Source of the DNA: a virus
Reading direction: 5' to 3' (one strand)
DNA length: 64,000 nucleotides
Virus record (IMG/VR): IMGVR_UViG_3300010412_000005
Location: 1-64,000 of that record
This document shows, in pieces, positions 5,385 through 40,219 of this stretch. The notes under the pieces are model-generated. The model had not been told where the DNA came from and made no database searches. It saw nothing but the letters and a program-made list of their open reading frames with translations. A program made the position numbers and the translations under genes. The stretch's first letter is position 1. Each line of letters starts with the position of its first letter.

Positions 5385-5385
5385 T

Positions 5386-10449: not shown

Positions 10450-10693
10450 CGGAGACGGAACTTTTGACGTAGACATCAGCGCCAAGAACCTGCGCCTGCT
10501 GACAAAAAAGCAGGGAAAGGTCATTACGCTGCTTGACATAGAAGACATTGCGCTGGTTGAACTAGCAGTTGGTAACATAGCATTCAAACCCAAAGTCATC
10601 GTCAAGATCGAGAGGCGCATAACAGCAGAGGACAGGTTTAAGATCGCACGCGAACAGGTCAGGCAGAGAATTAAGGAGCCCCAATTACTATGA
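10316..10693 (+). CDS. Hypothetical 125-aa protein overlapping portal start
   Basis: The start at 10316 has GGAG just upstream and lies inside the preceding gene. The first about 40 residues are basic and coil-like. The conserved-looking core begins near residue 39 with SLTNNGDGTFDVDIS and continues into helices with a basic C-terminus. The last four bases overlap the portal start (ATGA), so translation is probably coupled. The position just before the portal is often held by small packaging or head-completion proteins. Confidence 0.6.
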   Translation: MSRKAPNARILCQKPSLKKEVSTQDLLPQRRKTSRRSAQISLTNNGDGTFDVDISAKNLRLLTKKQGKVITLLDIEDIALVELAVGNIAFKPKVIVKIERRITAEDRFKIAREQVRQRIKEPQLL

Positions 10694-15045: not shown

Positions 15046-15083
15046 GACATCAGATCCAATGCCGGTTGTCGCGCTATTAACAC

Positions 15084-16784: not shown

Positions 16785-16808
16785 GCCTTACAGGCAGTAG
16801 CCTGCACG

Positions 16809-16842: not shown

Positions 16843-16859
16843 CGTATAGAAGGTCCGTT

Positions 16860-18903: not shown

Positions 18904-21278
18904 TGTCATTCAGACCTGTCACGATCAGGAACCTTGGCGGGTTCTTTGATACTCGGGCGATGCCTGATGAAGTTGGCATCTCCAACTACACTCTTTTACT
19001 CAACAGCAGCATGCGGAGCAGAGGAAAGCGGTGCAGGCGTGGCGGGTGGAAGCGGTTGTTCGATGGAGTAAATGACAACTACAACAACGAGGATCTTCAC
19101 GATCAGCTTCTTGGGCTTCAGTTCTACTACACAAATCTGAGCGCAGTTATCACGACTCAAGAGACTGTTGGTTATCAGTATCCATATTGGATTCCTGGTG
19201 TTACAAACCCAACATCATTTGACGACACGTTCTACGGAACGCAGCCTCAGTATTGGCCAGACCTAATTAACAACGGATACACATTTTTCGATTCTGAGGC
19301 AGAAGGATGGGCGTTTGACAATGAGTTTGTAGGATACCCATACACGCCTTGCGTTGATGGAGTAACTCCGTATTACCCTGGAACGACCTGCCAAAACAGC
19401 TACGCAGACATCTACTGGAGAGAGCTGATTGGTGGAGAATCGTATCCTGGTTACTCATACGGAACACCAGTTCCTGTAGTAACACCAGCCAGGACGTATC
19501 TATACAGCTACTGTGATACCTATCCCTATGTTAGAGATGGGTGCAATGAAGCTGTGACAATGCTCAACAGCATTGGTCAGTTCGACGGAAATCGGGTTTT
19601 GGTAGCCGCAACAAAGAGTCGTATCTATGCGCTGAACTTCGCGACTGGAAACTGGAAGATCGTTGCTGACGGACTTGGAACTGACGAGGGATCTCAACCG
19701 TGCGACACATGCTCGCCTGAAAGATGGATGAGCGCTGTGGTTCAAAACGTCATGGTGCTGACAAACGGAGTTAATACTCCGATGACTTTCAACCCAATAG
19801 ACAGCCCTACGACTTGCGCATTGTGGAGAGCTGAAGTCATTGCAGACATGGACACTCTGAACATCTCGTCTGCTGGCTGTGTTGGGAGCTGGAAAGGGTT
19901 TTCCTTCATTGGAGACGTCGTCCAAGACGGCGTGCGCTACAGGAATCGCATACTGTGGAGTGACTACAATGACCCATACACTTGGGTTCCTGCAGACGAC
20001 AACATCGCAGGGTTTCAGGATCTTGGTAATGACGAGATCATTCTCCAGATCCAACCGCTCAACGACTTCTGCTTCATCTACACAGATCGTTCTATCTATC
20101 GGCTCGCATTGATCGCTACCGATCCTGCGGCTCCCACGTTCGCGTTCGAGGAGATCTATCGCGGAGACGAATCGCTGAAATACAAGTATGCATTCGTCAA
20201 TACTGGCGCGGCTCACATCTTCTGGTCAGAGAACCGAGTCCTGCAAATGACCAGCTTCGACAAGCGCCCTGTTGAACCAGACTGGTTTAGGGCTGTGTCA
20301 AATACTGTGTTCGATGGAATGAGCACTGAGGAGATCGCGTTCGATGGTCTGAACGAAGAGCAGTGCGATCATTTCATCGGAGGATACAACCCTGAGTTCA
20401 AGGAAGTCTGGTTCTCTTGGCCGACTGGTAGCAACACCTGCCCAAATATGTCGCTGGTGTTCAATCTAACGCGCGCTGAGGAAGGTGCAGACTTGGTCGA
20501 CCAAGGATTCACAGCATTCCACTGGTATGACGGGCGCAAGCAGCTGTCTGTCTTTGAGTGGTGGGAGGACATGCAGGTATGCACACGCACTCAGTCTCTT
20601 GATGAGATGGTTAAGGAAGGTCTGCCATACCAAACAACCAGTGATCCCTTCGACAACCCGGTCGCTTCAACATGGAATGCAGCTGATGATTGGGATGCTG
20701 AATCAGATACTGACTCACTGTGCAGGCGCATGGAAGAGTTCTGGATCAATGTGATCTGCAGTGACTGCAACACTGAGAGTCGTTTCGTGATGGCTCACGC
20801 CGACGACAAAGCGCTGAAAGAATACGCAGACAAGACATACTATCGACAGGAACTCGATGGCTCCCTCTACGTTCTCAACGGATACGACACTGTCATACGT
20901 TCTGGACAGTGGGACTTCAAAGACTCGAAAGAAAAACGGATACGTGAGCTTTGGGTTCAGTTCTTGGCTGAAGAGCAGACTGTGCCAAATCTCCTGTATG
21001 GATACATCGGAATCGCACCGTCACCTAATTGCATCACGTGGAAGCAGATCAGGTCTTATGACGACTGCGAGACAGTCACTGAAGGCATTCCGTTGGCGTG
21101 TCCCACTTCGAAAACAGCCGAAGAGCACGAAGAGGATTACACTTTTGCGAACAACCCAACGCACTTCCAGACTCTACTGCGCAGTCGCTACCTTGCATGG
21201 AAGCTGAAGGTGACTGGAACTGGTGGAGGCGTATGCTTCTCCCAGGTGACTCTGGACGTTGAACAAACTCAGAAGTAA
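18903..21278 (+). CDS. Tail nozzle protein (T7 gp12/P22 gp10 type) (791 aa)
   Basis: The opening TIRNLGGFFDTRAMPDEVG and the following NYTLLLNSSMRSRGK pattern match the start of podoviral tail-tube B/nozzle proteins, which list the non-redundant strands of a beta-propeller. The core has repeated propeller-like blades with aromatic-glycine turns (GNRVLVAATKSRIYALNF, then NDFCFIYTDRSIYRL). Length fits the family. The protein would form the hexameric distal nozzle that opens for DNA ejection. Cysteines are unusually frequent for a nozzle protein. The start overlaps the fibre stop. Confidence 0.78.
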   Translation: MSFRPVTIRNLGGFFDTRAMPDEVGISNYTLLLNSSMRSRGKRCRRGGWKRLFDGVNDNYNNEDLHDQLLGLQFYYTNLSAVITTQETVGYQYPYWIPGVTNPTSFDDTFYGTQPQYWPDLINNGYTFFDSEAEGWAFDNEFVGYPYTPCVDGVTPYYPGTTCQNSYADIYWRELIGGESYPGYSYGTPVPVVTPARTYLYSYCDTYPYVRDGCNEAVTMLNSIGQFDGNRVLVAATKSRIYALNFATGNWKIVADGLGTDEGSQPCDTCSPERWMSAVVQNVMVLTNGVNTPMTFNPIDSPTTCALWRAEVIADMDTLNISSAGCVGSWKGFSFIGDVVQDGVRYRNRILWSDYNDPYTWVPADDNIAGFQDLGNDEIILQIQPLNDFCFIYTDRSIYRLALIATDPAAPTFAFEEIYRGDESLKYKYAFVNTGAAHIFWSENRVLQMTSFDKRPVEPDWFRAVSNTVFDGMSTEEIAFDGLNEEQCDHFIGGYNPEFKEVWFSWPTGSNTCPNMSLVFNLTRAEEGADLVDQGFTAFHWYDGRKQLSVFEWWEDMQVCTRTQSLDEMVKEGLPYQTTSDPFDNPVASTWNAADDWDAESDTDSLCRRMEEFWINVICSDCNTESRFVMAHADDKALKEYADKTYYRQELDGSLYVLNGYDTVIRSGQWDFKDSKEKRIRELWVQFLAEEQTVPNLLYGYIGIAPSPNCITWKQIRSYDDCETVTEGIPLACPTSKTAEEHEEDYTFANNPTHFQTLLRSRYLAWKLKVTGTGGGVCFSQVTLDVEQTQK

Positions 21279-21878: not shown

Positions 21879-22841
21879 ATGAGCTTTGGAATGCTCAACG
21901 CTGCTTTTGGTTCTGACAAACCGAACCTTGGAATGGTTACGGTTGTCAAGAACAAGGAGATCCAAAAGCTTATCGACGAGGGAACCAGTCAGGCTGGGGC
22001 TACCCAAAAGGCAACAGCTGCAGGCGTAGAAGACTGGCGATCTCAGTGGCAGTCTCAATACCTGCCCACGATTCAGCGTCAAATGGGACAGGAGTCTGCT
22101 CTTCTTGATACCCTATACGGAGGCGGATTTGAGCAGAAGCTCGCTCAGCTACGGCAGGGTGAAGCGACTGCTCAAAACCGCGCTCTTGAGCAAACTCTTG
22201 GCAGGCTAAGGTCTGGGCAGGATTTGCAGCGTGCTCGCCTTGGTATCGGCGGAAGGAACACCCAGCAGGACATCATGGAAGCTCGCCTGATGAACGATCA
22301 GGCTACCAGAGTTGCGTTGCAGCAGGCGGCACAGGAGCGAGCTGACTTTGGCAATTTGTGGCAGCAGCAGTTGGCTGGCATGGGACAACGTCAGGCAATG
22401 CAGGAGAAGCTTTCGACGATGCCTTTGCGCGAGGGGCAGATCATGGCCCAGGCGTATGCTACTCCTTTGCAGCTTGCTGAGCAGGTTCGGCAGATGGATG
22501 AAGCCAATAAGTTCCGCAGCCTCTATCGTAAGCGTGATGCGCTTGAGCGCCTGTCCGACATGGAACAGGTTGGAATGCAGCAACTCGGTCAGCTTACTGA
22601 GATGGCTGGCAACGTAGCATCAGTGGCTGGTGCATTCTGCTGGGTTGCTCGTGAGGTTTACGGTGACGAACGGTGGTTGCTGTTCCGTCATTGGATGCTC
22701 ACCCAGGCTTGCGACGGGTTCTTCTATTGGTATGCAATGCTCGGTGAGAAGATCGCCAGAGTCATTCATGGCGATGAGTATTTGAAGAGCTACATCCGTA
22801 ACTGGATGAACACGAAGATCCGCAATGGCAATCGCAGGTAA
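21879..22841 (+). CDS. Internal virion (ejection) protein candidate (320 aa)
   Basis: A strong Shine-Dalgarno (GGAGGATGAGACT) precedes the start. Residues 1-240 are low-hydrophobicity, glutamine-rich helices (QSQYLPTIQRQMGQESALL, LAQLRQGEATAQNRALEQ). The last about 65 residues form a distinct compact domain beginning at about 254: CWVAREVYGDERWLLFRHWM, then a Y-rich stretch. A C-terminal CW/CFxA..YG...R.FR box of this kind occurs in phage internal proteins and bacterial secreted proteins. It is placed between the tail genes and the giant protein, the normal site of ejection proteins. Confidence 0.7.
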   Translation: MSFGMLNAAFGSDKPNLGMVTVVKNKEIQKLIDEGTSQAGATQKATAAGVEDWRSQWQSQYLPTIQRQMGQESALLDTLYGGGFEQKLAQLRQGEATAQNRALEQTLGRLRSGQDLQRARLGIGGRNTQQDIMEARLMNDQATRVALQQAAQERADFGNLWQQQLAGMGQRQAMQEKLSTMPLREGQIMAQAYATPLQLAEQVRQMDEANKFRSLYRKRDALERLSDMEQVGMQQLGQLTEMAGNVASVAGAFCWVAREVYGDERWLLFRHWMLTQACDGFFYWYAMLGEKIARVIHGDEYLKSYIRNWMNTKIRNGNRR

Positions 22842-24057
22842 GCCAATCTACGCAGGCGACGTCAATACACTCGCTCAGCTTGATCTGCAGCGATCTATTG
22901 CACAGTCAAAAGCAACTCAGGAAGGCATTGCTGGTGCCAGTCGTGGAGTTGGAAATCTCCTCAGCCAAAAGCAGCAGGAGCAGTATGGAAAGCTCAAGGG
23001 TCGAGAGCTTGACATCCAGGAAGGTCAGCAAGAGCGAGAAGACAAGGAGCGCATGGAGCGCTACACGTTCGAGTCTGCTCAGCGTGCTGCTCAAGAAGGT
23101 TTGCTGGATGCTGACCAGCTCGAAAACATTGCCCCAAGCTTCAAAGATCCAACCCGTCAGGCAATCATAAAGGAAGAAGCAAATAGGCTTCGTGGGCTTG
23201 AAGAGACGATGGATGAGGAAGGTCCTCAGATTGCCAACAGACTGAACCAGTTCACTGGATACGAGCAAAGAACCCTGCAGAGAGCGCGTGAAGATTTGGC
23301 GAAAGCTGAGCAGGGATGGAAAGTCCCTGGAGTCGGCTGGGGTCCTGGGTCACAGGCTAACATTGAGGATGCTCAGAACCGCGTAGCGATGGCTGAGGCT
23401 GCAATCGCAGCCAAGGAAGCTCAGATCTACGAGGCGTATCCACAGTATGCAAACAGACTTCAGCTTGGCGAAGGTGGATACACCTATCTTCCTCGAAGCG
23501 GTAAAAGAAGGGGCATGGGATCTCAGGCTGATGTTCTTCCTCCAGCTGGTGGAGCTGCACAGGGTATAATGGTTGCCCCTCAAGAGCCTGTTGTTGGTGC
23601 GGATATCCTTCCAGAGGACCAGGGTTATGCTCCTCCTACTGGTCAACCAAGCGCAATGGCTCCTGATGTTCTTCCTGCTGCTGAATTTCCAAGGTCTGCG
23701 CGAGGAACAACTATGCCTCGGTCAGCTCCTCCGACAGGACCAGTTGCTGGCAGGGGTTCACGCAGAGCAATAGGGCCAATCCTTGGAACGCCTACAGGGC
23801 GAAATCCTCGTGGTGCGTATCGCCCATCTGCAGTTCAACAAGTCCAGCCGACGACTGAGACAGCAACAACTCCTAGCCAGGAAACGCCTAGCCAAGGACT
23901 ATTACCTGCTAACATCTCAGACCGGCTCGATCAGGAGACACTTAACGAGTTCTACTCGCGAATGGCTCAATTCCAGAGACAAGGTATGTCTTTAGATGAG
24001 GCAAGACGCCGCGCCGGTCTGTGGCTAAAGCAACAGATTGACGCGGAGGTTTTCTAA
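22825..24057 (+). CDS. Internal virion protein candidate, proline-rich (410 aa)
   Basis: It starts 17 bases before the previous stop. Residues 1-160 are helical and charged (LSQKQQEQYGKLKGRELDIQ). A short segment follows (WKVPGVGWGPGSQANIEDA), and residues 220-350 are a disordered, A/P/G-rich linker. The last about 50 residues are helical. There is no signal peptide. It is positioned and built like an ejected internal protein. Its stop overlaps the start of the giant gene (TAATG), so the two are translationally coupled. Confidence 0.65.
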   Translation: MAIAGKPIYAGDVNTLAQLDLQRSIAQSKATQEGIAGASRGVGNLLSQKQQEQYGKLKGRELDIQEGQQEREDKERMERYTFESAQRAAQEGLLDADQLENIAPSFKDPTRQAIIKEEANRLRGLEETMDEEGPQIANRLNQFTGYEQRTLQRAREDLAKAEQGWKVPGVGWGPGSQANIEDAQNRVAMAEAAIAAKEAQIYEAYPQYANRLQLGEGGYTYLPRSGKRRGMGSQADVLPPAGGAAQGIMVAPQEPVVGADILPEDQGYAPPTGQPSAMAPDVLPAAEFPRSARGTTMPRSAPPTGPVAGRGSRRAIGPILGTPTGRNPRGAYRPSAVQQVQPTTETATTPSQETPSQGLLPANISDRLDQETLNEFYSRMAQFQRQGMSLDEARRRAGLWLKQQIDAEVF

Positions 24058-27000
24058 TGCCTGAGTCATACGATCCCTTCTCTGATCTCCAAGATCCAAA
24101 TGTAGCCGTATCTGAACCTCCGTTGCCTCCTGCCCCAGGCAGGCCAGCCGCGCCTCAAGAGCAGCAATTCGACAGAAAGCAATTTGTCGTTGATGTCCTT
24201 GAGGACATTGAGCGGTCGCCTGAGTATCAGGCATACAAGCGCAACAGAAAGGAGGCAGCGCTAAAGGAGGAGCTGCGCCAACAGCGTCAAAGGACGGCAG
24301 ACTTTGGCGAGTCTGTTCTTGGCAACCTCCTACACCTTAAAAGCGGTGACCTTCAGCTTGCCAAGATAGGCGCGATCTTCAGCGGTTGGGCCAACAGGAA
24401 GCTTGGAATGCCAGAGGCTGCTGCGGTAGCAGACCGCAAGGCAGATGAATATCGACAAGAGCAAAAGGAGATTCGGTCTGCTATCGACGGTCTGAATATG
24501 GGTGCTGTTGCAAGGACAGCAGGTCAGTTCGGAGAGTCGTTCATTGTTTCTTCTCCAACGCTGGTGGTTCCAGGAACAGCTGCTACCGCTGCTGCGCGTG
24601 CTGGGTTAGGTGTGGCTGGAGCGAGCATGGTTGGGCTCGGAGCTGGCGCTGGTGTCGGCGGTGGGATCTCTGGCATCTCTGTCTATGACGATGCTCGCGA
24701 TCAATACATCGCTCAGGGATTCTCAGAAGAAGAAGCCAGCGAGATGGCCAAGTATCCAGGCTGGGTGTCTGGTATTGGAACAGCAGCTATCACTGCGTTG
24801 TTCGGACGCACTGGTGTTGAACGCAGCGCATTCCTCAAGCTTCCGAAGGACAAGGTAATTGGAGTTCTGCGTCAGGTTTTCAATCAGGCTGGACTCGAAG
24901 GTCTTGAGGAAGGTGCTGATGAAATCTACCAAAAGATCACCGGCTACCTCACCTACCATCCTGACATGCCTGTTGAACAGGCAATATCGGAGGTTGGAGC
25001 AGCGTTTGGACTTGGTATGGCAATGGGCGGCGGCGTTGAGATCCTTGGTCAGATCGTCAACATGTCCCCTCCTGAGATCAAAGCTCTCAATGAGAGGGAG
25101 TTCCCACGTCCACAAGAAAGGCCAAAGACACGAAAGGAAGCTGAAGGCTCCCCAATTCTTCCAGCGTCTACTCCGAAGCAGGGACAGACCAAGCCTACAG
25201 TCAAATCTGTTCAGTCCAATGAAGAGGCTGCTCGCCAGCTGTGGGGAGCAATGAAGCCTGAAGAAAGGCTGAAGGTCATTGGTCCTCAAGGTGCAGCTGC
25301 TCCACTACCTCTTGAGGCAATCAACTGGGAAGATCTGACTGAGGAAGAGCAGCTCAAGGTCTACGACCAGTTCAATCTGAGCGTTGAACCAGTTGGAGGC
25401 AGGATACCCGCAACGGCTCCTGCGATGCCAACAGCTGAAGATCTTGCTGAAAACGAGAGACTAACCAAGGCCATGAGAATGTCCTTGATTGGGTCTCCTG
25501 AGCATGAAGCTGCTTGGGCAGCTAAGGAACAGCTCAAAGCCAAATACGGTGGGCATGATCTCACCAAGATTGGGACAGAGGTTCCAGTGGCTGAAGCTGC
25601 CGCACCAGCTGAACCAACTGCTCCTGGAGATCAAGCTTGGGCTACGAGGCTATCTCCAAGCGACAGCTTGGCAGTCAGGAGTGCTGAACCTATTGATCCA
25701 ACCACAATAACCAGCGTCACCAAAGATACGAACGACGCTGGTCAGACTGTGTATGCGATCATATACGACAACGGAAAATACATTGGATACGATGACAATC
25801 CAGCGTGGGAGCTTCATCCGTTATTTGGAAAGAAGATAACTCCTGCAGCTCCTGCAGCTCCTGCTGAGCCTGGAGCACTGGCTAACCATGCTGATCAAGT
25901 CACCGTTCCTCAAGGCATCCCTGCTTCTGAGAATACTGCCTACAGATCTCTTGAGACCAATCCCCAGATTACTGTCGAAGAGTTTGCTGGCATGGATAAC
26001 GAGCAACGCGCCAACCATGCTCGGTCGATTGGTCTAAATGCTACAGGTCTGTCCTACGCTGTAGGTCACAATGCAACCGTTACCGAGAATGATATCCTTC
26101 TCCTCAAGACTGCATACGATCAGGCTCGCGCAAGAGGCCAACAGCTTGCTGATGAATCTTCGAAGAGGACGCTGACAGACGCTGAGCTGAACGAGTTGTC
26201 TCAGCTTGGTCAGGTTGAGAACGCGATGGCTGAGGCCATTGGTGCTGCCACTGATACAGGCAGCGCTGGGTTCACACTGCGCAAGCTGCCGAATTACAGG
26301 CCGAACTTCAGGGGTCTGATCAATGAGCCGAAGAGGCAGTCAAACCAGCCAGAGGTTAAGGCAGCCAAGAACCGGGCAGTCACTGAGGTAACTGCACAGA
26401 CATCCGATATCCCCACCACTCTTGCCACAAACCTCCCAGACGACCAGGAGCAGCTCGCTCGCGAGCAGGTGTTCAAAGGACTGAAGCCTGCCGAGTTCAG
26501 CCCAGCCCAGGCAAAGATCTACAAGGGCAGAGACAGGGCTAATTACGACAAGCGCGTGCTTGAGCTTAGGGCTCTTGCCTTCATCGCACCTACCCTGGCG
26601 CGTGGTGAGACTCTTGTGTTCCCTGACACCGCTACGCTTGGGAAGATCAAGAAGAACCATCCTGGCATATACAGACTCTTACAGGATGAGATTTCTAGGC
26701 TTACGACTCCTCCAAGGGCAGACACTCCGTCCCAGGAGGCGGCTGCATCGACTCCCACTCAAGACCTTCCGAAGAACGAGGATCAGTCTAACCCTCTCAG
26801 CTTGAAGGAGATGAGCAAGTCTGCTGTTGAGCATTTCATCTCAACGCTCAACCTTCTGAAGCAGGCTGCAGAGTCAAAGGTCAGATCAGCTAAGCACGTC
26901 AAGAAGCAGAAGAGCGTCCTGGCGAAGCAAGGGAAGACCTTGAAGGAGTTCAAAAAGGTCCAAGCCCTGCACGCTGAAGCACTCCAAGAGGTATCCAGAA

Positions 27001-30000
27001 TCGAAAAGCGGGTTGCCGGTTTGAGGAGCCAGCTCGCAGAAGCCGCCGCTGTTGCGCCTACGGCTGAGAATGCGCGGTCTATCCTGACCACCCTGGTGTC
27101 CAGGACCCAAAACAAGTTACGGCTCGCCAGAATCAATTCTCAGCGTTTGCAGGAGCAGCACGATTCCCTGATCGCTCAGGCTCAGGCAGCACTTGATGCA
27201 GTCCCAGTCGGTCCAGCAAGCCCAACCACCCTGGCTAAGATCGCTGATCTCAGGGCAAGAGCTGAGACTCTTGGCAAAAAGAAGATGGCTCAGGTCAAGA
27301 CCGTTGAGAGCCTTCAGGCAGAGATCAAGGAATACCAGCGCCAGATCGAGGACATCAAGAGGATGCCCAAGGATGCGCCCATTGATCGCGAAGCTATCAG
27401 ATCTCAGATCAAAGACCTTGAGGCTCGACGTCAACGTGTATCAGAAAAAATTCCAGGCAGGGCTGAGGCGATGGATACCCTGCGTAAAAGGTTGGTAGAC
27501 TTGGAGTTGCAGTATCGCAAGGCGTTCTTGGAAGAGGTAGATGAGCGATCTGGTGGCAAAGTCTCCGAGTTCATGCAGAAGCGAGAGGCTGCTGGTGCTG
27601 AATACAGAGGAACATCATGGGCCATTGCAAACATCAGGGCCGCATTGGCGACATACGGATACCAGTTCGATGTCCAGCCATACGTGAGGAAGTTCGTAGA
27701 AAGGGAAGTCACTGATCCTGTCACTGGTCAAAAGGCAGTCATTAAGGAATACACCAGACGTATCGGTGGGACAGTAGGGGCGGTAATTGCTCAGAGACTA
27801 AGGGCTGGCGATGTTGAGGTTGCGGAACAGTTTGAGGCTAATGACTTTCTGACTATCAGACCAGTTCCAAACTTCTTCGTAAGAGAAGGTGAGGAGATCA
27901 ACTGGCCAGAAGCCGCCAAGTCTTTCCTGACGCTGATCGAGAAACCAACAGAAGCCCAGAAGAAATCTGCTGAAGGCGTTACGAGTTCAGACTCATTCGT
28001 TGCGTGGTTTAAGGAGAACATCGTTCCAGCCGTCATGGGGATTCAGGAGCGTTTGTCGAAGGCTGAAGCTGCTTTGACTGAACTGCAAAACAGCGTGTCT
28101 GACTTCGGGCTGACCAAGCAGTCGACGTGGTCCTATGATGCGAAGTCGAACGAATTCAAGTGGGGCATTGACTCGTTCCTGGCACCAGATCCGAACTACG
28201 TGGTCTGGATGTCTGAGATCAACTCACGAAGCCCTCTCGGTTCTGACCCTTCCAGCACCGTTGTAATCCCTCCTGGAGCAGGGCAGAGCTTGCCGCTTGA
28301 GCCAGACTTCGAAGGTGAACAGGTCAAGATTCCGCATGTTCACCCTGGAGATCGCCCTCAAACCAAAGAGGGTATGTTCAACCCTGGCAAAGGAGACGTC
28401 ACGTGGCAGATCGCATACTACACCCAGGATGATGATGGCAGGATGGGTGACACGATTGTGGTCTTGCAGCGCAGCCATCATAGGGTGTTTCACATCGTCA
28501 CGATTAAGGATGGTGTTGTCGTTGAAGATGTTAGGGCTCCTCAAGACAAGACAACTGGACGGACAAACTACAAGACAGCTGTCCAGGCTGCTCAGTCAAA
28601 ACTCAAGGGTAAGATTCAGTCTGCGTTCTGGACAGCTGAGCGAGGTTTCCAGATCCCAACTGTCTACAGCCTGTCTCCTCTCACTGATGGAACAGTTCCT
28701 TCAAACGTGAGTGGGCAGGGAAGCGTTCTTTGGACTCCTGCCGTAGAGCTGGACAGTATCGAGGATGCTCTCTATCGAGCTGCTGCAGCTGGTGAACTCC
28801 GACCAGGGATGAGCAAGGATGCCATCTCTAAGGCAGTAACCAAGGCTGTTGCTGGCATAAGCCCTTGGCACTATAGCGCTTACAAAAAGAGCTTCCAGGC
28901 TCAGCGCTATTGGAGATCTCAAGCCGAGAACATCATTCGCAACGCTACACAAGACGCGATCATGGCGACACAGATCGCCAGTTCTGGTCGAAAGCCAAAC
29001 ACTGAAGTTCTCGCACGGGCATTTGGAATCGCAAACCCAACATTCACGCCGAAGAAGATGCCTAAGCTTGAACTGGCTCAAGCTGAATACATCAGAAGGG
29101 CTCTGAGTGTTCCACGTGGAACAACGGACTTCCAGGAGACAGTCGAAGTTGAATCGACGTTTGAAGTCAAATACCCGCGCACGACGCAAACCAGAGAGAA
29201 CGGTTCTCGCGTTGTGTCAATCGAGCTGGATCATCCGACAGCACCAGCCGTTTTGGGGACTCCGTATTTCAGAAGGACTACGCCGCTGGTAGCCAAGCAG
29301 GAAGACTCAATCATCATTACCAAAGATGGCAGAGCATACGGATGGTTCGTGTTTACTGAAGCCACCACAGCTGCTGAGAAGAACAACATCTTCGCAACAA
29401 TCGACGGAAATCCATCTGCCACTGCATACACTGAGACAGTCACTAAGCGTGCACCGCGCATGAAAATGGACCCCGCTGACAGGGTGGAGCACGCTGAGGA
29501 TTATCTGCAATCTCGTGTTGTTCAACGACTTGAGCAGCCAACGAACAATCCTACCACCCAGCAGCTTGCAGCTGAAGCCGCAGCTACGGTCGACAAGCTT
29601 AGAGAAACGAAGACTGGCAGAGATATTCTGCAGAACTTCCTTGAGGATGCGCGTGATGTCCGACTTGGCAGAAGCCGGTTCGTCAACAACATGCTGCGGC
29701 TCTTCAACACTGCTTCATTCAGTGAGCAATACGCCGTTCAGGTTGATGACAGCACAGTCGAGCGATACGTGGATGTCTCCATTCCAAACGTGATGGAGAA
29801 GACCAGGGTTCTGGTCGAAGCAAACACCACCAACGAAGAGGCGTATGCTGCTGCTGTTTCCCAGTTGGTAGACCAGATGTCGATGGCTGTGTCTCCACAG
29901 ATGCTCAGGATATTCGGAGTCAGTGGAGCTACCTACAGCGAGATGTCCTACGAGCCAAACCTGGACGGCTACGTCAGGCTCAAGAAGGGCATGGAGGCTC

Positions 30001-33000
30001 CTGAGAACCGCGTTCGAATCAAGGAGCTGAACGACATTGCTGACCTGGGCAAGAACCACCCAAGCTACAAGCTGGTCAAGGGCAGGTTCACGATGGGTGT
30101 TGGGTATGAGCGCATGGCTGAATTGCTTGCGGAGGTTGGGCTTAACCCAAGCCTGCTGACAAAGCCGAAGCCGGGTCAGAACGTGCAGCTTGAGTTCGTT
30201 GGGGACGATGGCGTGACCAAGATCATGCACACCATCGCGACTCCGAAGACCAATGAGCGTGTGCTGCGTAGGAAGACGAAGGCTGGCAAGGTTGTCGAGA
30301 CGAAGATTCCGTTCGAGTCTGTGGTGGTTGGAAAAATGTTCGACTACTACGTCGAACGCATCCAGCAGATCTACAAGCGCATCCAGGATCATCAGGTAGC
30401 CAGGGCAAACATGAAGGCTCTGGTTGCAAGAAGGCTGTTCGCTGAGGCTTTCAGGCTTCCAATCATCGAAGGTCCGTTTAAGGGTGTTCTCCTTCAGGCC
30501 AAGAACCAGCAGAGGAATCCAAGACATCAGATGCTTGGGCGAGCCAAGGCTGTCATCGGGGCAGAGCAGGCTGCTGCTGGAAAGAAAGCTGAGGAGGAAT
30601 ACCTGCCTGAAATTGATACGAGCGGCTTCTACGAGTATCGACTCGTCAGCAATAAGATCTGGACGAAGGCCAAGTTCGAGACCGACGAAAACGTCAAGTT
30701 CCAGGCGTCATTCATTCCGCTCGGAACTGTTTTGCTTCAGGTTGAAAGCGAAGGCGAGTTCCACAATCGTCAGACAGTCAGCACCAACGCAATGGAGGCT
30801 GAGGAGGTTGAGCTTGAGCGAAAGAAAGGCGAGACTGACGAGGAATATGAAGAGCGAGTTGAGATGGCAAAGCTCAAGTCTCGCTTTGATGTTAAGGCTG
30901 TAGAAGCTTTCTTGGCTGTAGAGAAACAGCCTAAGACAGGACGACACTTTGCACGCATAGTCATTCGCGGTGGAACTAAAGCAAAGCCTGAATGGGAAAC
31001 TATCTACCGCGTAGACCTTCAGAAGCTTCAGAATAGCGGACTTGCAAAACCATTTACCAAAGAAGAAACCAAGAGTGGGAAGACTGATGGCTGGTATATC
31101 AACAGGCATGCAGTCAACAACTCTGCATGGTGGGAAGTCGCTAAGCCTGATAGGCGTGACTATCTGAGTCCTGAAGACTTTGCAAACTACTATCCACACA
31201 AGCTCGGGCTTCTTCCTGGAGATGTGCTTGCACAGGCTCGGTGGGTTTCGATGGTGTCTGAAGGAAGTGATGCAGAGAGAATCATCAATGAGCGCGTCAG
31301 TGGATTGAGCAGCACATCGGTAGGGACGTTCAATCAGAAGATCACTGAAGCTGCACCAGATACATTCTCTGCTACCCGTTTCAACATGGAAGATGTTGAG
31401 GGTGGAAACTTGATGGATTGGCTTGAGGAGAATCTAAGCAAGTCAGCCAAAGGTATAGAGATCCTCAAGCGTATTCACTCCATTGACCCTCTTGCTGAGT
31501 TGACACCTGAAGGTAGAGATCCTTGGCAAATCGTCAGGGATGAGATCCTTGTCATAAACGGAATTCCTATTGGCAAGGATGCTACTAAGACTCAGGAACA
31601 GCTTGCTCTTGCTGACAAGATTGAGAAATCTCTGAATCGGGTTCATGAGTCTCGCGTGTCTGGTGGTGTTCAATTCCGTGGCGGTGGTCGCAGGACACGC
31701 ATAAGCGATGTCAATCCAGACGTCATCAACAAGCCTGCTATAGGCAAGGCTGCAATTCGCGAGCTGATCAACACTGAGAACAACGGATTAAGCCCAAGAG
31801 CGAAGCGGCTTGCCAACCTGATGCTCGATGTGCTTCCTGATACGATCCTTGAAGATCTTACGTTTGTGATCACTCCTGGATACGAGATCGGCAACGACGC
31901 GACAGTCGAATACACCGGGTCATTTAGCCATGCTTGGAGAATCGCAAGGTTCGTCAGCACATCTGGAAGTGTTCACACAGCTGCTGAGGAACTCGCGCAT
32001 GCTGCTGCCATGTTCCTTCCTGCTGAGCACAAGGGAGCCGTTGAGGAATATCGGCAAATTGAGATACGTCAGGCTCTTGAGAACCCAACCACTCCTGAGA
32101 TCGTAAAGACTTTCCTGAAGGACATGGAGGCTAACGGTGGTGCGTTCACCAGTGAAGACTTCATGCACCGCAGGGGTAATCAATACCTGCTGCCTTACTA
32201 CCACCTGATCAACACAGATGAGTTCTTTGCCCATAACATGGTTGCTGCCACTGATCGTAAAGGCAGGACAAACCTGCAGAAGGCAGTTGATAAAGCAAAG
32301 AGCATCATCTCTGGGTTCCTGAAGGGAATCAAAAAGGCGATGCGCATGATGAACGCGCAGCGCGATTCTTACTTCGACGAACTGATCGCCAAGTTCGAAG
32401 CCGGTGACTTTGAGGTTACAGCCAACGGTGGGTTCTTGCATGAGATCAATAAGGACGTAGACATGGGCGCTGTTGCCGTCGCGTGGACTGCTGGTCAGGT
32501 CAAGCGCCAAGCAGAGACTATCCCAGTTTCTACTGCGGGTGGTCCTGCTTTGGCGTTTACCAAGGCGCAGCGAGGGACTGTAATCGCGGCTGGAAATGTA
32601 GAACCATATACCATCCTTTCCGCCCTTACTGCCAAAAGAGAGGCACAAGGAAGAAAGCTCAGCGCAAAGGCAAAGCAGATCTGTCTGATCGACAACTTCC
32701 AAGAAGTGATCGAAACCGTCCGTAATGTGTTCAAGGTTCCGATTGGACAGTTCAAAGACACGATCACCAATCTTCCAGCTGTATGGCTGAAGGAACAAAC
32801 AATCTTAGCTGCAAGCTCGTCCGTGAACTTCATACGCGAGCGAATGAACAAGGTTAAGAAAGCCAGGGATACATGGATGGCTAAGCTAACGTCTCCTAAG
32901 TTCATTCAGGACATGAGGAAGTTTGCTAAGCTGAAGATCGAGGTTCTTGGCCAAGAGGCAATCGCTGCAAGACTCGAAGAGCGCATTAAATCTCATCTTG

Positions 33001-36000
33001 CTTTGCTGCGTGCGCGTCTTGCAGATCCGAATCTTGATCCCAACAGCCCATTGGCAGCCAATGCAGCTCGCGAAATAGATCTTTATGAATCATATATGAC
33101 CTACTCTATGGGCATCGCCCAGAAGGTAGAGCAGATGATCACAGCATTGTCGCTGACTGAGCAGGGCAACGAGCTGCTGCAGAATCCTTGGGGAAATCTT
33201 GATCCTCGCGCAGTAACGAAAGCATATAAAGACACTGCTCCTCCTCCAGAACAGCTTCAGGTTGGCAATGCAATCATAGAGGCAGCTGCATACTTCATAG
33301 CAACTGAACCAGCTATAAGGCAGTTGATGGCAGCTGCTGTGTATCAGGCTGACCCTGAAGTAGCAAACTTGACTGATCAGTTGACGATGGACATGACCAA
33401 CATGATGGACGAGTTGGTCAAAGCTCCAGCTGGGTTACGTGCAGTCGGCAAGGGCGACGACTTGGTTAACAAGTTCATGCGTCTGATCAGAGCCACGCAG
33501 AAGTCGACTGCTGCCGAGACGAAGGCAAAGACTGTTATGCGAGCGCAGCAGATTAAGCTTCGTAAAGTGATCAACAGGGCTCAGATGCTTGATGAAGCAT
33601 ACGAGTTCTACCAGGAGCTGATGGCAGATCCTGATTGGATCGCATACGAAGGTGAGATTGCCGATCTTGCTGGTGCTCTTCACATTCCAGAGAACTGGAA
33701 ACATGTCGGTAGCGATCCTGTGTCAGGCATTGTGAAGATGCCGCTTCCGATGACTGCTCCGAAGGTAACGACCAGTGGAACTGAGAACGCATACCATGTT
33801 GTAAAACTGCACGACAACTTGGCCAGATGGGAGGCTGAGCGCGTAAAGGTTCAGGAGTCCATTGATCAGATGACTCAGTGGCTAGTAAACAATGGCAACG
33901 ATGAAACTCTTGATGCCAAGTATTTCAAGTCGATGATTAAGTATGGGCAGATGCTGCTCGACTCATCCTTGGTAAACGACATACAAGGCAATCACCAGGG
34001 TGGGTTCAACTTCATCAACGCGATCTTCAATAAGTGGACCGCAATGTGGGAAGGTATTGCTCGTTCGGCTCCAGTGCGTGCAATTCAGAATTCGCGTATT
34101 GCTGTCAGAGCGTGGAGCGATTCGATGTTGCTCATGAACAAGTGGTATCAGAAGTGGGGTGATCGGATTGCAACACTTCTGCATAAAGCCACAGACTCTC
34201 ACAGCGACATCGTTGATATCAGTGACAGAAACAAGTCTGTCTACGACTGGTTCAATGAGGTAGGCAGAGAATTGTTCCACCTTGCCAACGAGGGATACGA
34301 TCCGAAAGCAGGAGATACTCTTCCTGATGCTCAAATAGAGATCACGCAGGACGATATCAACTGCCTAAAGGAAATGGTTACTGCAGCAGACGAGGCATAC
34401 GAGATTGATGTCACGCGAGGGCGAGAAGTAATTCCTTCAAGGACCGTAACTGACGAGTTCATTCCTGGAATGCCGTATCAACGTCGTGCTATGAAGCTTG
34501 TTCAATACATGCTTCCACGCACGTTCAACAAAGCTGCAATGGACTTTACTAAGAAGTGGCTCATTGAGCATGCTGGTTACGACGCTGATCGTAATAACTA
34601 CAGTTTCAGGGATATGGCTGGAGCTACTGAGCTTCTCGATCAGCACTGGTATCTGTTGAAGGCGTTCCTCAGCGACAGAGACCTTGGTTTCACTGACAAG
34701 AAGAGCCCACTGGAAGTAGGTGCATACCCGGCATTGCTTGAAAAGATCAGAAATGAAGAGATAACCAACGTAGAAGACTTCCTGGCTGCGCTCGATACGT
34801 TCAGCATCACTGAAGAAAACTTCGATGCACGACAGCAGTTCTGGAAGGACTTCTTCCATCTGCAGAAGGGAATCTACAATAAGGCTGTTACTGACAAATC
34901 GTCAGAGACGGATTCACAGCGTAAAGGGGTTTACATTCCATTCGAGCAGGAGAACTCATTCACGCGTGGTCGCGGTCAAAGGATCGCGCCGTATGCATGG
35001 TATAATCACGGATTCCACAGCACGGCACAGACAATGTCGTTCATGCTGAATGGATCTTCCCACTATCTGAACTGGGTAAGCAGATCAGTAGAGGACTCTA
35101 TCCTTGTATTGAAGGACATGCAGGACGATTACCAGAAACGCATTGATGCGTTGGAAGGAAAGAGAGAGCCGAGTAAGGAGACAAGGAAGCGTAGGCTGAT
35201 TGAGGAAACCAAAGCGAATCGTCAGGCGATGCGCCTGAACGAGGAGCGAATTAAGCTTGAGGATATCGACAGCACTATCAAAGCGCTAAGAGACTTCAGA
35301 ACTGAACTTCAGAAGGTATTCGCCTCTGAAGGTAAGCTGCTTGAAGAAGAGACGCTGCAGTGGAACAGGTTCTTTGGCCTGTATATGGGTGGTGCTATCT
35401 CAAGCTTCCGCACTGGCATTCAGAACATGCTGCAGTCAGCAATCGGTTACTCGTCTTGGAGGTTGCAGCGTCTGCGTGGTGGAATCTTCAGTGTGTGGCC
35501 ACAGCATGCGTTTAGGCTGACCTGGGATCTTGCACAGATGGCACCATACTCAGCTATCCGTGCAATCTACGATGCTGCTCCATTCATTGGGAAGGTGCAT
35601 TACATCAAAGCTCTCAAGGAAATGGGCATGCTGTTCAGCGTGTCGAACTATCAGAAGTATGGTCTGGCTAACATCCCTCGTCAGGTAACGCTCACGTTGA
35701 ATGAGTTGTTCTCTGACATGGTTCAAGACCTTGCTGATGGAGCGTGGAAGCGAGGAAGGATTTACAGAGAACTCGCAGAGCGCGGACTTAACAACCCGTT
35801 CAACACGCGCTACCACCTTGAGTCGGTTGCGGAGTCGTTCACAAGCCTTGGAAGGATTACATACAAGGAGACTGACAAGCCTGTTGCTGCAGAAGGTCCT
35901 GTTGATTGGGTGTGGAAACAGATGTGGAACGTGCTCAAGACTACCGGCAAGGGTATGCTTGGAGCTGTTGATATCGGCATGGCGCTTACGATAAGGCCAT

Positions 36001-37541
36001 TCCTTCCTCGCGCTGGTGACATGATGGCTAATCAGGTTGCAGCTGAGACAGTGTTCTCAGCTATGCACGCAGTAGAAAGCAGCCTTCGGCACAACTACCT
36101 GAGAGCTAAGGATCGTGGTGCTGATCCTCGCATCGTTGGAACAATTCTTCCAACTGATGTGCTGCCGCGTTGGTTCAGGCTTCCGCGCAACAATCTGTCG
36201 GCGCTGTCTGATCTGAAGAACTGGTTCCAAGGTGCTGCCGTTGATCTCAAGGGCGCAATCAATGACTTCTATGATCGCCTTGATGCTGCCGGTGATGATC
36301 CGAAAGCTCTTGGTGAGGTTCGGTTCCTTGATCATGAGCAGATCTGGAATCTTGCTCAGCAGCATCTTGAGGATGTTAACGTGGCAACGCCCGCCAACCG
36401 TCCAGCCATCGCAAAACGGAACACGATCAACCGTATTCTGTTCGCACTCAAAGGATGGAGATGGAACATGTTCAGCAAGATCATGGACATGATGGGTGGT
36501 GCCATGATGAAGCATGAGAGCGTGGCGCTAAGAGCATGGGAGAAGTTTGGAAATATGTATTACATCCTATCCGCAGCAGCCATCGGTGGTCTCGCTGGGT
36601 ATTGGTTGTTGGAGACGCTGACAAGGGCGATCTACCTTGCGCTATTCGGAGAGATCCGAAGCGTCAGAAAGCTTGAGGATGTGTCTGCTAAGCCAACCGA
36701 AGTTGCTGTCGGAATGGCATCCATCGTTCCGTTCCTCGATACCGCTGTGAACCTCACGTTCAACACGCAGCCTTCCAAGGCAAGATTCAGTCCTGGAAGT
36801 CTGGTCGACAGCATGATGCTTCAGGTCATGAACTACGTTGCTGGTGCATACAACAGCAAGGATCTGACTTACGGTGTCGACCGCGCTGTCGTGACGTTAC
36901 AGCCGACAATCGGCAAGCTTGTGATGAACAGGATGCCGGGTGCTACCGGCAAGATCGAGAACTGGAATGCCAGCAGGCTCCTGATCAGGCATGGCGAAGA
37001 TTCGTGGCTCAGGGAGTCAAGGTTCGGTGGTCAGATGTCTGGAATGTTCGTGACTCCATACACGCCAATCGCTGACCGCATGGTGAACGCAGCCATGCAG
37101 AACGATATCGGAAGGGTCCAGGAAGAATACATGGACGGCGTGACTCAGATGGTGATGAACGAGAACATCCCATACGAGGAAGCCCAGCGTCGTATGCGTC
37201 AGATGTTCACCAGTCGCAATCCATACGACCGCGCATACAAGCGCAGGCTGACATCTATGGAAAGGGCTCAGGTCCTCAACAAGATGGACATGGACGACAG
37301 GGACAGAGTCCAAGCTGTTGAGCGCAAGTTTGAAGCAGCAGCCAACGCCATCGGCGCGAACGTGAACTTCGAAAAGCAGGAGCGTCTGTTCAAGGCTGGA
37401 AAGACAGCAGTATCGCGGTTGCAGGCCATTCGAAAGCAGAGACGTGCAATGCTCATGAGCAACTCTGCAGCTCGCAGGGCGAGCATAAACATCATGGATC
37501 GCAGTCGTGGACTGTTGACTCGTGGACGAGTCTTACTATGA
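24057..37541 (+). CDS. Giant internal virion protein (4,494 aa)
   Basis: One uninterrupted frame of 13.5 kb encodes a 4,494-residue protein, more than a fifth of the window. Visible parts, with approximate residues: a proline-rich tail (1-45); glycine-rich hydrophobic stretches at 160-210, 237-252 and 315-335 that could insert in a membrane; A/P-rich linkers near 600; a long coiled coil at 920-1165; a degenerate zincin-like EELAHA site at 2644-2649; charged helices at 3685-3760; a hydrophobic segment at 4167-4200; and a basic tail from 4440. The order resembles large polyvalent phage proteins ejected into the cell. I see no DxDGD or HExxH motif, and no clear T7-like RNA polymerase motif. It is the last gene of the structural block. 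Its enzymatic functions, if any, are unknown. Confidence 0.85.
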   Translation: MPESYDPFSDLQDPNVAVSEPPLPPAPGRPAAPQEQQFDRKQFVVDVLEDIERSPEYQAYKRNRKEAALKEELRQQRQRTADFGESVLGNLLHLKSGDLQLAKIGAIFSGWANRKLGMPEAAAVADRKADEYRQEQKEIRSAIDGLNMGAVARTAGQFGESFIVSSPTLVVPGTAATAAARAGLGVAGASMVGLGAGAGVGGGISGISVYDDARDQYIAQGFSEEEASEMAKYPGWVSGIGTAAITALFGRTGVERSAFLKLPKDKVIGVLRQVFNQAGLEGLEEGADEIYQKITGYLTYHPDMPVEQAISEVGAAFGLGMAMGGGVEILGQIVNMSPPEIKALNEREFPRPQERPKTRKEAEGSPILPASTPKQGQTKPTVKSVQSNEEAARQLWGAMKPEERLKVIGPQGAAAPLPLEAINWEDLTEEEQLKVYDQFNLSVEPVGGRIPATAPAMPTAEDLAENERLTKAMRMSLIGSPEHEAAWAAKEQLKAKYGGHDLTKIGTEVPVAEAAAPAEPTAPGDQAWATRLSPSDSLAVRSAEPIDPTTITSVTKDTNDAGQTVYAIIYDNGKYIGYDDNPAWELHPLFGKKITPAAPAAPAEPGALANHADQVTVPQGIPASENTAYRSLETNPQITVEEFAGMDNEQRANHARSIGLNATGLSYAVGHNATVTENDILLLKTAYDQARARGQQLADESSKRTLTDAELNELSQLGQVENAMAEAIGAATDTGSAGFTLRKLPNYRPNFRGLINEPKRQSNQPEVKAAKNRAVTEVTAQTSDIPTTLATNLPDDQEQLAREQVFKGLKPAEFSPAQAKIYKGRDRANYDKRVLELRALAFIAPTLARGETLVFPDTATLGKIKKNHPGIYRLLQDEISRLTTPPRADTPSQEAAASTPTQDLPKNEDQSNPLSLKEMSKSAVEHFISTLNLLKQAAESKVRSAKHVKKQKSVLAKQGKTLKEFKKVQALHAEALQEVSRIEKRVAGLRSQLAEAAAVAPTAENARSILTTLVSRTQNKLRLARINSQRLQEQHDSLIAQAQAALDAVPVGPASPTTLAKIADLRARAETLGKKKMAQVKTVESLQAEIKEYQRQIEDIKRMPKDAPIDREAIRSQIKDLEARRQRVSEKIPGRAEAMDTLRKRLVDLELQYRKAFLEEVDERSGGKVSEFMQKREAAGAEYRGTSWAIANIRAALATYGYQFDVQPYVRKFVEREVTDPVTGQKAVIKEYTRRIGGTVGAVIAQRLRAGDVEVAEQFEANDFLTIRPVPNFFVREGEEINWPEAAKSFLTLIEKPTEAQKKSAEGVTSSDSFVAWFKENIVPAVMGIQERLSKAEAALTELQNSVSDFGLTKQSTWSYDAKSNEFKWGIDSFLAPDPNYVVWMSEINSRSPLGSDPSSTVVIPPGAGQSLPLEPDFEGEQVKIPHVHPGDRPQTKEGMFNPGKGDVTWQIAYYTQDDDGRMGDTIVVLQRSHHRVFHIVTIKDGVVVEDVRAPQDKTTGRTNYKTAVQAAQSKLKGKIQSAFWTAERGFQIPTVYSLSPLTDGTVPSNVSGQGSVLWTPAVELDSIEDALYRAAAAGELRPGMSKDAISKAVTKAVAGISPWHYSAYKKSFQAQRYWRSQAENIIRNATQDAIMATQIASSGRKPNTEVLARAFGIANPTFTPKKMPKLELAQAEYIRRALSVPRGTTDFQETVEVESTFEVKYPRTTQTRENGSRVVSIELDHPTAPAVLGTPYFRRTTPLVAKQEDSIIITKDGRAYGWFVFTEATTAAEKNNIFATIDGNPSATAYTETVTKRAPRMKMDPADRVEHAEDYLQSRVVQRLEQPTNNPTTQQLAAEAAATVDKLRETKTGRDILQNFLEDARDVRLGRSRFVNNMLRLFNTASFSEQYAVQVDDSTVERYVDVSIPNVMEKTRVLVEANTTNEEAYAAAVSQLVDQMSMAVSPQMLRIFGVSGATYSEMSYEPNLDGYVRLKKGMEAPENRVRIKELNDIADLGKNHPSYKLVKGRFTMGVGYERMAELLAEVGLNPSLLTKPKPGQNVQLEFVGDDGVTKIMHTIATPKTNERVLRRKTKAGKVVETKIPFESVVVGKMFDYYVERIQQIYKRIQDHQVARANMKALVARRLFAEAFRLPIIEGPFKGVLLQAKNQQRNPRHQMLGRAKAVIGAEQAAAGKKAEEEYLPEIDTSGFYEYRLVSNKIWTKAKFETDENVKFQASFIPLGTVLLQVESEGEFHNRQTVSTNAMEAEEVELERKKGETDEEYEERVEMAKLKSRFDVKAVEAFLAVEKQPKTGRHFARIVIRGGTKAKPEWETIYRVDLQKLQNSGLAKPFTKEETKSGKTDGWYINRHAVNNSAWWEVAKPDRRDYLSPEDFANYYPHKLGLLPGDVLAQARWVSMVSEGSDAERIINERVSGLSSTSVGTFNQKITEAAPDTFSATRFNMEDVEGGNLMDWLEENLSKSAKGIEILKRIHSIDPLAELTPEGRDPWQIVRDEILVINGIPIGKDATKTQEQLALADKIEKSLNRVHESRVSGGVQFRGGGRRTRISDVNPDVINKPAIGKAAIRELINTENNGLSPRAKRLANLMLDVLPDTILEDLTFVITPGYEIGNDATVEYTGSFSHAWRIARFVSTSGSVHTAAEELAHAAAMFLPAEHKGAVEEYRQIEIRQALENPTTPEIVKTFLKDMEANGGAFTSEDFMHRRGNQYLLPYYHLINTDEFFAHNMVAATDRKGRTNLQKAVDKAKSIISGFLKGIKKAMRMMNAQRDSYFDELIAKFEAGDFEVTANGGFLHEINKDVDMGAVAVAWTAGQVKRQAETIPVSTAGGPALAFTKAQRGTVIAAGNVEPYTILSALTAKREAQGRKLSAKAKQICLIDNFQEVIETVRNVFKVPIGQFKDTITNLPAVWLKEQTILAASSSVNFIRERMNKVKKARDTWMAKLTSPKFIQDMRKFAKLKIEVLGQEAIAARLEERIKSHLALLRARLADPNLDPNSPLAANAAREIDLYESYMTYSMGIAQKVEQMITALSLTEQGNELLQNPWGNLDPRAVTKAYKDTAPPPEQLQVGNAIIEAAAYFIATEPAIRQLMAAAVYQADPEVANLTDQLTMDMTNMMDELVKAPAGLRAVGKGDDLVNKFMRLIRATQKSTAAETKAKTVMRAQQIKLRKVINRAQMLDEAYEFYQELMADPDWIAYEGEIADLAGALHIPENWKHVGSDPVSGIVKMPLPMTAPKVTTSGTENAYHVVKLHDNLARWEAERVKVQESIDQMTQWLVNNGNDETLDAKYFKSMIKYGQMLLDSSLVNDIQGNHQGGFNFINAIFNKWTAMWEGIARSAPVRAIQNSRIAVRAWSDSMLLMNKWYQKWGDRIATLLHKATDSHSDIVDISDRNKSVYDWFNEVGRELFHLANEGYDPKAGDTLPDAQIEITQDDINCLKEMVTAADEAYEIDVTRGREVIPSRTVTDEFIPGMPYQRRAMKLVQYMLPRTFNKAAMDFTKKWLIEHAGYDADRNNYSFRDMAGATELLDQHWYLLKAFLSDRDLGFTDKKSPLEVGAYPALLEKIRNEEITNVEDFLAALDTFSITEENFDARQQFWKDFFHLQKGIYNKAVTDKSSETDSQRKGVYIPFEQENSFTRGRGQRIAPYAWYNHGFHSTAQTMSFMLNGSSHYLNWVSRSVEDSILVLKDMQDDYQKRIDALEGKREPSKETRKRRLIEETKANRQAMRLNEERIKLEDIDSTIKALRDFRTELQKVFASEGKLLEEETLQWNRFFGLYMGGAISSFRTGIQNMLQSAIGYSSWRLQRLRGGIFSVWPQHAFRLTWDLAQMAPYSAIRAIYDAAPFIGKVHYIKALKEMGMLFSVSNYQKYGLANIPRQVTLTLNELFSDMVQDLADGAWKRGRIYRELAERGLNNPFNTRYHLESVAESFTSLGRITYKETDKPVAAEGPVDWVWKQMWNVLKTTGKGMLGAVDIGMALTIRPFLPRAGDMMANQVAAETVFSAMHAVESSLRHNYLRAKDRGADPRIVGTILPTDVLPRWFRLPRNNLSALSDLKNWFQGAAVDLKGAINDFYDRLDAAGDDPKALGEVRFLDHEQIWNLAQQHLEDVNVATPANRPAIAKRNTINRILFALKGWRWNMFSKIMDMMGGAMMKHESVALRAWEKFGNMYYILSAAAIGGLAGYWLLETLTRAIYLALFGEIRSVRKLEDVSAKPTEVAVGMASIVPFLDTAVNLTFNTQPSKARFSPGSLVDSMMLQVMNYVAGAYNSKDLTYGVDRAVVTLQPTIGKLVMNRMPGATGKIENWNASRLLIRHGEDSWLRESRFGGQMSGMFVTPYTPIADRMVNAAMQNDIGRVQEEYMDGVTQMVMNENIPYEEAQRRMRQMFTSRNPYDRAYKRRLTSMERAQVLNKMDMDDRDRVQAVERKFEAAANAIGANVNFEKQERLFKAGKTAVSRLQAIRKQRRAMLMSNSAARRASINIMDRSRGLLTRGRVLL
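25840..25866 (+). repeat. Three tandem 9-base units encoding an A/P linker
   Basis: CTCCTGCAG occurs twice in a row, followed by CTCCTGCTG, inside the giant gene. It encodes a short PAAPAAPAEP linker. The length is a multiple of three, so copy-number change would keep the frame and vary the linker length. Confidence 0.8.
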
Positions 37542-37548
37542 TGCGCAC

Positions 37549-40218: not shown

Positions 40219-40219
40219 A

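Follow-up and report, generated by a model that had tools for sequence, protein, structure and literature searches.

The stretch of DNA analysed here (the window) comprises positions 1 to 64,000 of the virus record IMGVR_UViG_3300010412_000005, which is 76,545 bases long in all. Its plus strand carries, at 24057..37541, a giant gene encoding 4,494 amino acids with two cysteines (aa 2876 and 3436). The frame opens with ATG and runs for 13.5 kb with zero internal stops in the ORF listing and the translation. A second contig (L003, IMGVR 3300015263_000389) carries this frame as well, differing at 14 nt and 3 aa, and the giant frame is therefore unlikely to be an assembly accident; its preliminary description as a single 4,494-residue protein is borne out. 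The same description placed it above N4-type virion RNA polymerases (vRNAPs) in length, correctly, as the eight vRNAPs measured span 3,342-3,632 aa. The size is not a record, since BcepIL02 gp70 has 4,667 aa, DC1 gp67 has 4,650 aa, the relative L066 has 4,833 aa, and BS-TP4 gp3 has 5,391 aa by its coordinates. In the record as a whole, window positions 1-144 form a 144-base direct repeat with the record end (76402-76545, the end of L002). The second contig spans the join of the record ends but lacks window positions 145-213; given the end repeat and the contig crossing the join, a complete or circularly permuted genome is probable.

The giant gene lies at the end of a run of structural genes. 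These include a terminase large subunit (8584..10104, minus strand; phrog_979, E 2.8e-12), a portal candidate on the plus strand (10690..13050, 786 aa) that is assigned by position and size only and has no convincing family match, and a plus-strand virion structural protein (18903..21278, 791 aa; phrog_3287, E 2.6e-22). Two ejection-protein candidates were said to precede the giant, and ORFs of the right kind do stand at that place on the plus strand: candidate A (21879..22841, 320 aa, two cysteines) and candidate B (22825..24057, 410 aa, zero cysteine), which overlaps the giant by 1 nt (TAATG). In all nine loci examined that have upstream DNA (the window and eight relatives; L072 lacks upstream DNA and L046 is not among them), candidates A and B precede the giant in that order and the three close the structural genes; the 1-nt overlap between the candidate B stop and the giant start occurs in seven of the nine. 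Across the nine loci, candidate A measures 306-336 aa and candidate B 410-728 aa; the candidate B profile has two members only, so the longer versions are equated with it by position. On the 3′ side of the giant, the window and L062 each have one more ORF in the same orientation before the gene direction reverses.

Further along the window are a tyrosine integrase (45600-46616, E 1.1e-13), a DnaC-like helicase loader (46893-47798, E 2.3e-8), a PD-(D/E)XK nuclease (50879-52039, E 2.5e-10) and RecT (52321-53235, E 7e-38). This set is temperate-like, and phage DC1 has comparable integrase, RecT and DnaC-like genes, yet the scan of bacterial genomes found no relative. The integrase, RecT and loader distinguish the genome from that of N4, and the 14 distinct proteins scanned from it included no recognisable DNA or RNA polymerase.

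Against the 50,697 phage records of INPHARED, megablast of window 1-25000 found no similar phage, and tblastn gave no match for the portal candidate, for the C-terminal half of L042 or for the giant, searched as aa 1-2999 and aa 3001-4494; the terminase gave one weak match. A family set was assembled from IMG/VR by terminase bait, region retrieval and two alignment-based scans, leaving out the near-identical L003 copy. The terminase bait yielded 38 loci, one of them the near-identical contig, and aa 2000-4494, searched in 19 records, matched eight, that contig included. The set holds 11 complete giants of 3,160-4,833 aa, besides partial ones: the window giant (4,494 aa), L062 (4,189), L063 (G006; 3,724), L065 (G009; 3,828), G003 (3,574), G004 (3,589), G005 (3,475), L066 (4,833), L072 (4,414), L079 (3,160) and L080 (3,160). 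Two pairs do not count as independent members: G004 and G005 share 93% identity along most of their length, and in the alignments L079 appears near-identical to L080. Scanning bacterial genomes by pattern with the C-terminal alignment returned nine pattern matches and no relative. Two further giant frames in relatives, L049:10803-20000 (G007, at least 3,066 aa) and L037:4802-10945 (at least 2,047 aa), are without blastp similarity to the window giant and are perhaps fibres.

The window giant is depleted of cysteine: 48 would be expected from positional base composition, and 2 are observed in 4,494 residues. Thirty-seven other window ORFs of our choosing contain 191 cysteines in 11,608 residues (1.65%), and relative to these the scarcity in the giant has a binomial P of 1.2e-29. 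The trait runs through the family, with zero cysteine in nine of the 11 complete giants and five in 42,440 residues overall, contributed by the window giant (2) and L062 (3); the four partial giants counted have none (G007end and G017e were left out). Other ORFs of the relatives, 21 of them picked by us, contain 138 in 9,043 residues. Candidate B is cysteine-free in eight of eight cases and candidate A in six of the eight counted.

Several delivered or presumed virion proteins of other phages are alike in this respect. Cysteine is absent from the vRNAPs of all eight N4-like phages (0 in 27,865 residues), from N4 gp51 and gp52, from T7 gp15 and gp16 (gp14 was left out), from PA11 gp035 and the StenR_269 giant, and from four of four Bcep22-type giants, BcepIL02 and DC1 among them (0 in 15,528 residues). 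P1 is a contractile-tailed phage. Its DarB, which is related by blastp to the middle of the BcepIL02 giant, has nine cysteines; three of these lie within aligned blocks, where BcepIL02 has V, G and A instead. The BS-TP4 giant is a counter-example, with four cysteines in a 4,819-residue fragment, and the absence of cysteine is not exclusive to giants, as a 584-aa scaffold candidate in the window also has none. In the available part of PMC3915230, the lack of cysteine in the vRNAP is explained by the hindrance that disulfides would pose to passage through the tail. Large cysteine-free proteins of StenR_269 and Zobellviridae have been published, as excerpts of PMC10747016 attest, and they share with the window giant their position and zero or near-zero cysteine; StenR_269 and PA11 differ from it in having no convincing N-terminal similarity.

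Blastp among the relatives delimits three conserved parts of the giant, aa 29-341, about aa 2544-2730 and aa 3077-4443. The first is a Gly-rich N-terminal domain (24141..25079, plus strand), defined by blastp and hhalign, in which E281, E284, E285 and D288 are invariant in 11 aligned family members. Gly-rich hydrophobic stretches had been reported for the protein; they are present at aa 182-209 and 313-334 but are moderate, with a Kyte-Doolittle 19-residue mean of at most 1.45. This is the maximum for the giant's N-terminus, relatives reach up to 1.83, and transmembrane helices in the window protein are not clear-cut.

Compared by hhalign, 12 family N-termini and eight vRNAP N-termini match at 95.2% (score 75.6; reversed, 2.8%), and the match was reproduced at 95.4% with separately made alignments. 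Shuffling the columns 200 times gave scores of at most 29.6 and at most 2.4%. The family N-termini match four Bcep22-type N-termini at 94.7% (reversed, 0.2%), the N4 group matches the Bcep22-type N-termini at 97.3% (reversed, 0.1%), and all 48 decoy pairs stayed at or below 0.9%. The link consists of profile-profile scores only, drawn from shallow, Gly-rich alignments, and it varies with the input: four family subsets and the window alone gave 43, 79, 2.4, 72 and 16.5% against N4, the 2.4% coming from a subset of two relatives. Those of these matches that exceed 16% all span N4 profile positions 312-413. With N4 the alignment covers window residues 92-447, and with BcepIL02 it covers 128-335; the invariant columns agree in part, the window having E281, E284, E285 and D288 and N4 having E388, E391, E392 and Q395. 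In hmmsearch against 1,195 phage ORFs, the family N-terminal profile recovered the window alone, and none of the 11 giants was recovered by the N4 or the Bcep22-type N-terminal profile; the N-terminal profile gave no rows in a PDB search by sequence.

The domain also has limits among cysteine-free proteins. As single sequences, T7 gp16 gave no match to the N-terminal profile, PA11 gp035 matched at no more than 0.3%, and the StenR_269 giant at no more than 5.2% (reversed, 1.6%); since these lack a convincing match, generality of the domain is not implied. The BS-TP4 giant showed no N-terminal match, but its N-terminus was cut off in the residues read. For N4, the N-terminal domain in isolation inserts into membrane nanodiscs (PMC12633501, in part), and the portions of Iyer et al. 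2017 (PMC5512222) at hand describe the N-terminal region as involved in injection; searches with that region and with the polymerase domain are described there as finding only the T7-type polymerase module of related phages and prophages. Literature searches among open-licence papers listed none on an N-terminus shared by N4, DarB and Bcep22 or on cysteine loss in Bcep22-type giants.

The resemblance to N4 gp50 and the other Schitoviridae vRNAPs may go beyond this domain (95%) and the lack, or near lack, of cysteine. In both systems the giant stands behind two smaller ejection proteins (candidates in the window, Cys-free in N4), a zincin-like block follows the middle (a weak match of 23%, motifs superimposed), and a large helical region forms the C-terminus, as excerpts of PMC12633501 describe for N4 and a poor model indicates for the window. 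Unlike a vRNAP, the window giant is longer, has no recognised polymerase domain and has an unmatched C-terminus. When the window structural proteins were compared with single N4 proteins by hhalign, the best value listed was 3.7%; terminase against terminase reached no more than 0.4%, which shows the test to be underpowered, and we do not read it as evidence of unrelatedness to N4.

Size class, cysteine scarcity, position and an N-terminal domain like that of N4 might indicate a very divergent virion RNA polymerase, as available parts of PMC10747016 argued for the large cysteine-free protein of StenR_269, and the absence of any other recognised RNA polymerase among the 14 distinct proteins scanned fits such an enzyme. 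The N4-type polymerase profile, however, scored 0.3% on the window middle (reversed, 0.1%; a single sequence, with no positive control) and no more than 0.4% on another eight segments, taken from relatives (single sequences, of limited power). We give a hidden polymerase a very slim chance.

Between the N-terminal domain and the second conserved part lies a variable middle (aa 342-2092, about 1,750 aa; 25080..30332, plus strand) in which Pfam and PHROGs recognise no family. It resembles even the closest relative, L062, weakly and at about aa 1708-1946 alone (E 1e-3), and jackhmmer of the middle against the relatives gave no rows. For the whole giant, Pfam and PHROGs returned nothing below E 0.05 (best E 0.072 and 0.26), and a PDB search by sequence gave five rows, all at E 0.25 or worse. 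The earlier statement that no catalytic domain is recognised thus holds for these searches of the window giant itself, but not once its relatives are brought in, through which a zincin-like block is recognised.

That block (aa 2544-2730; 31686..32246, plus strand) carries the motifs EELAH (aa 2644-2648) and NTDEFFA (aa 2719-2725). The motif reads EE[LI]AH in 10 of 11 aligned members and HEIAH in one (L065), and a DEF[FY]A-type motif follows it, by pattern, in 12 of 15 sequences. The block matches the N4 C1 metallopeptidase weakly (23.3%, E 8.8e-4; reversed, E 0.47) in an alignment that superimposes the window EELAH on the N4 HELVH, the window lacking the first His; with this histidine lost, the domain in the window may be altered or without activity. 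Against the Bcep22-type MPTase, cut around HExxH, the block scored 0.2%. N4 C1 matches the Bcep22-type C-terminal alignment at 68.9% but this 300-residue MPTase cut at only 1.0%.

The intact HExxH of L065 would suit a protein made in the infected cell as an enzyme or surface protein and absent from the virion. Against such an intracellular role stand the place of the gene at the end of the structural genes, its 1-nt coupling to candidate B, the scarcity of cysteine common to it and, in relatives, to candidates A and B, and its N-terminal link to giants reported in virions; no close match to an intracellular enzyme, which the preliminary description named as evidence against a virion role, was found. 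We hold an intracellular protein to be very unlikely. JC1 gp69, for its part, was detected in purified virions by mass spectrometry; it has 4,515 aa and lies at the end of the morphogenesis module (PMC9144972, parts available).

Giants of some relatives contain additional domains. A domain matching ART-PolyVal is present in four of the six members of A1 and in two of five proteins scanned besides, with scores printed as 29.4, 26.1, 23.2 and 23.3 bits, all below the curated cut-off of 31.2. In L043, L044 (G003) and L066 it sits between the two motifs of the block. The L066 giant (L066:6101-20602) also contains DUF7178 at aa 2120-2286 (39.1 bits, E 9.5e-10, above the cut-off), and the L043 giant contains phrog_14016 at aa 1324-1418 (E 2.4e-8). 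The window giant has neither an ART-PolyVal-like domain nor DUF7178.

Structure prediction in pieces had also been proposed, and AlphaFold2 was run on two segments; many helices were predicted, but both models are poor. For aa 1690-2885 the mean pLDDT was 54.7, with much of aa 1690-2540 below 50; small folds are better predicted, with a block pLDDT of 81-92 around aa 1880-1939 and of 68-89 at about aa 2280-2369. VIA-align on this poor model gave a best Z of 5.2, to the helicase Hel308, which lies in the range that the tool calls a common arrangement, and we draw nothing from it. No zincin or ADP-ribosyltransferase was seen among the 50 VIA-align matches listed, which for so poor a model excludes nothing.

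The conserved C-terminal region (aa 3077-4443; 33285..37385, plus strand) has its TPxNRP and GWxxN signatures near aa 4111-4137, followed by a hydrophobic segment (aa 4167-4188). About 1,150 aa of C-terminal sequence with the TPxNRP and GW signature are common to 14 sequences. The second AlphaFold2 segment, aa 3290-4445, was modelled almost entirely as helix at a mean pLDDT of 55.3. The C-terminal profile gave three PDB rows by sequence, at E 0.089 or worse, and the region did not match N4 C2 or the Bcep22-type C-termini.

A middle with no recognised domain, much of it (aa 1690-2540) below a pLDDT of 50, together with conservation mainly of the ends, is consistent with a purely mechanical ejection protein like T7 gp16, which is likewise cysteine-free; the giant would then form a DNA channel or motor part, its middle made up of linkers and helices. 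At 4,494 aa, however, it is over three times as long as T7 gp16 (1,318 aa), which has no match to the N-terminal profile, the middle contains better-predicted small folds, and relatives carry an inserted ADP-ribosyltransferase-like domain. With this domain present in some relatives, delivery of a cargo is more probable than a channel alone, and we consider the mechanical reading unlikely.

The Bcep22-type (Lessievirus) giants BcepIL02 gp70, DC1 gp67 and JC1 gp69 offer a second comparison. They have 4,515-4,667 aa, stand at the end of the structural genes, contain no cysteine (BcepIL02, DC1) and share a similar N-terminal domain (94.7%). The window giant differs in lacking, by blastp, the DarB-like methylase-helicase and in its unmatched C-terminus. 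We rejected a DarB-like identity for it, as P1 DarB finds BcepIL02, DC1 and, weakly, BS-TP4 by blastp and not the window giant; L062, L066 and L072 also gave no match (E limit 0.1). In the Bacteroides phage BS-TP4 (PQ571277, L105), the 5,391-aa frame lies at 1511-17686, beside the portal. The C-terminal part of its product matches the BcepIL02 giant (21.8%, E 5e-26). With the polyvalent proteins of Iyer et al. 2017 (PMC5512222), the window giant shares its nature as a very large product of a virion locus and its zincin-like block, and its relatives share the ART-PolyVal-like domain; the window giant differs in showing none of the catalogued domains by Pfam, whereas polyvalent proteins combine several disparate ones in one polypeptide.

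We therefore favour, with a probability of roughly 0.78, a virion-packaged ejection protein of a podovirus-type phage whose ends serve as delivery chassis and whose middle serves as cargo bay. The earlier suggestion of a giant ejected protein agrees with the gene order, the near-zero cysteine and the N-terminal domain like that of N4 vRNAPs and Bcep22-type giants; it may channel DNA, counter host defence or bring in enzymes, as was proposed. The data establish the N-terminal similarity, the loss of cysteine, the gene order and the conservation; as to packaging, ejection, membrane docking and cargo function, we infer a sequence in which the giant would be stored in the phage head and would cross the tail and cell envelope as a largely unfolded, cysteine-poor chain. 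Its N-terminal domain would dock it at the inner membrane or within it, and both terminal regions would act as delivery chassis. The middle would be a fast-evolving cargo bay that varies between phages, the cargo being an RNA polymerase in N4, a methylase-helicase in Bcep22-type phages and perhaps an ADP-ribosyltransferase-like domain in several relatives. By analogy with T4 Alt, which modifies host proteins (PMC5512222, in part), an ADP-ribosyltransferase cargo modifying host proteins is plausible in those relatives. The zincin-like domain, with its degenerate HExxH in the window, may have served, or may still serve, in processing.

We see even odds for a wider reading. Giant ejected proteins in three or more podovirus lineages, among them the N4-like, the Bcep22-like and the uncultured one described here, would have an N-terminal "injection leader" in common, and this leader would bring exchangeable cargo of hundreds of kilodaltons into Gram-negative cells, be it polymerase, methylase-helicase, ADP-ribosyltransferase or other, with cysteine purged from the cargo. 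Giants of such size and the cysteine trait are already known. As far as our literature searches reach, the uncultured family, the fact that a polymerase is unrecognisable in it and an N-terminal domain common to three kinds of giants are new. According to the available text of PMC12633501, it is still an open question in N4 how a protein of several thousand residues passes a tail channel of ~35 angstrom. If the wider reading is true, a delivery domain common to differing cargo would provide a general system that can be tested with the domain and a reporter; it would suggest that not every large cysteine-free late protein is an RNA polymerase, contrary to the assumption in PMC10747016 (seen in excerpt); and long, late and cysteine-free would be a simple screen for injected effectors in uncultured phages.

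Two groups of ORFs elsewhere in the window were noted by eye. The three ORFs after the giant (37522-40981) look glycosyltransferase-like, and similar-looking ORFs occupy the same place in L062. At 3828-6129, three consecutive ORFs of 247-261 aa look alike and are perhaps duplicated virion or fibre proteins.
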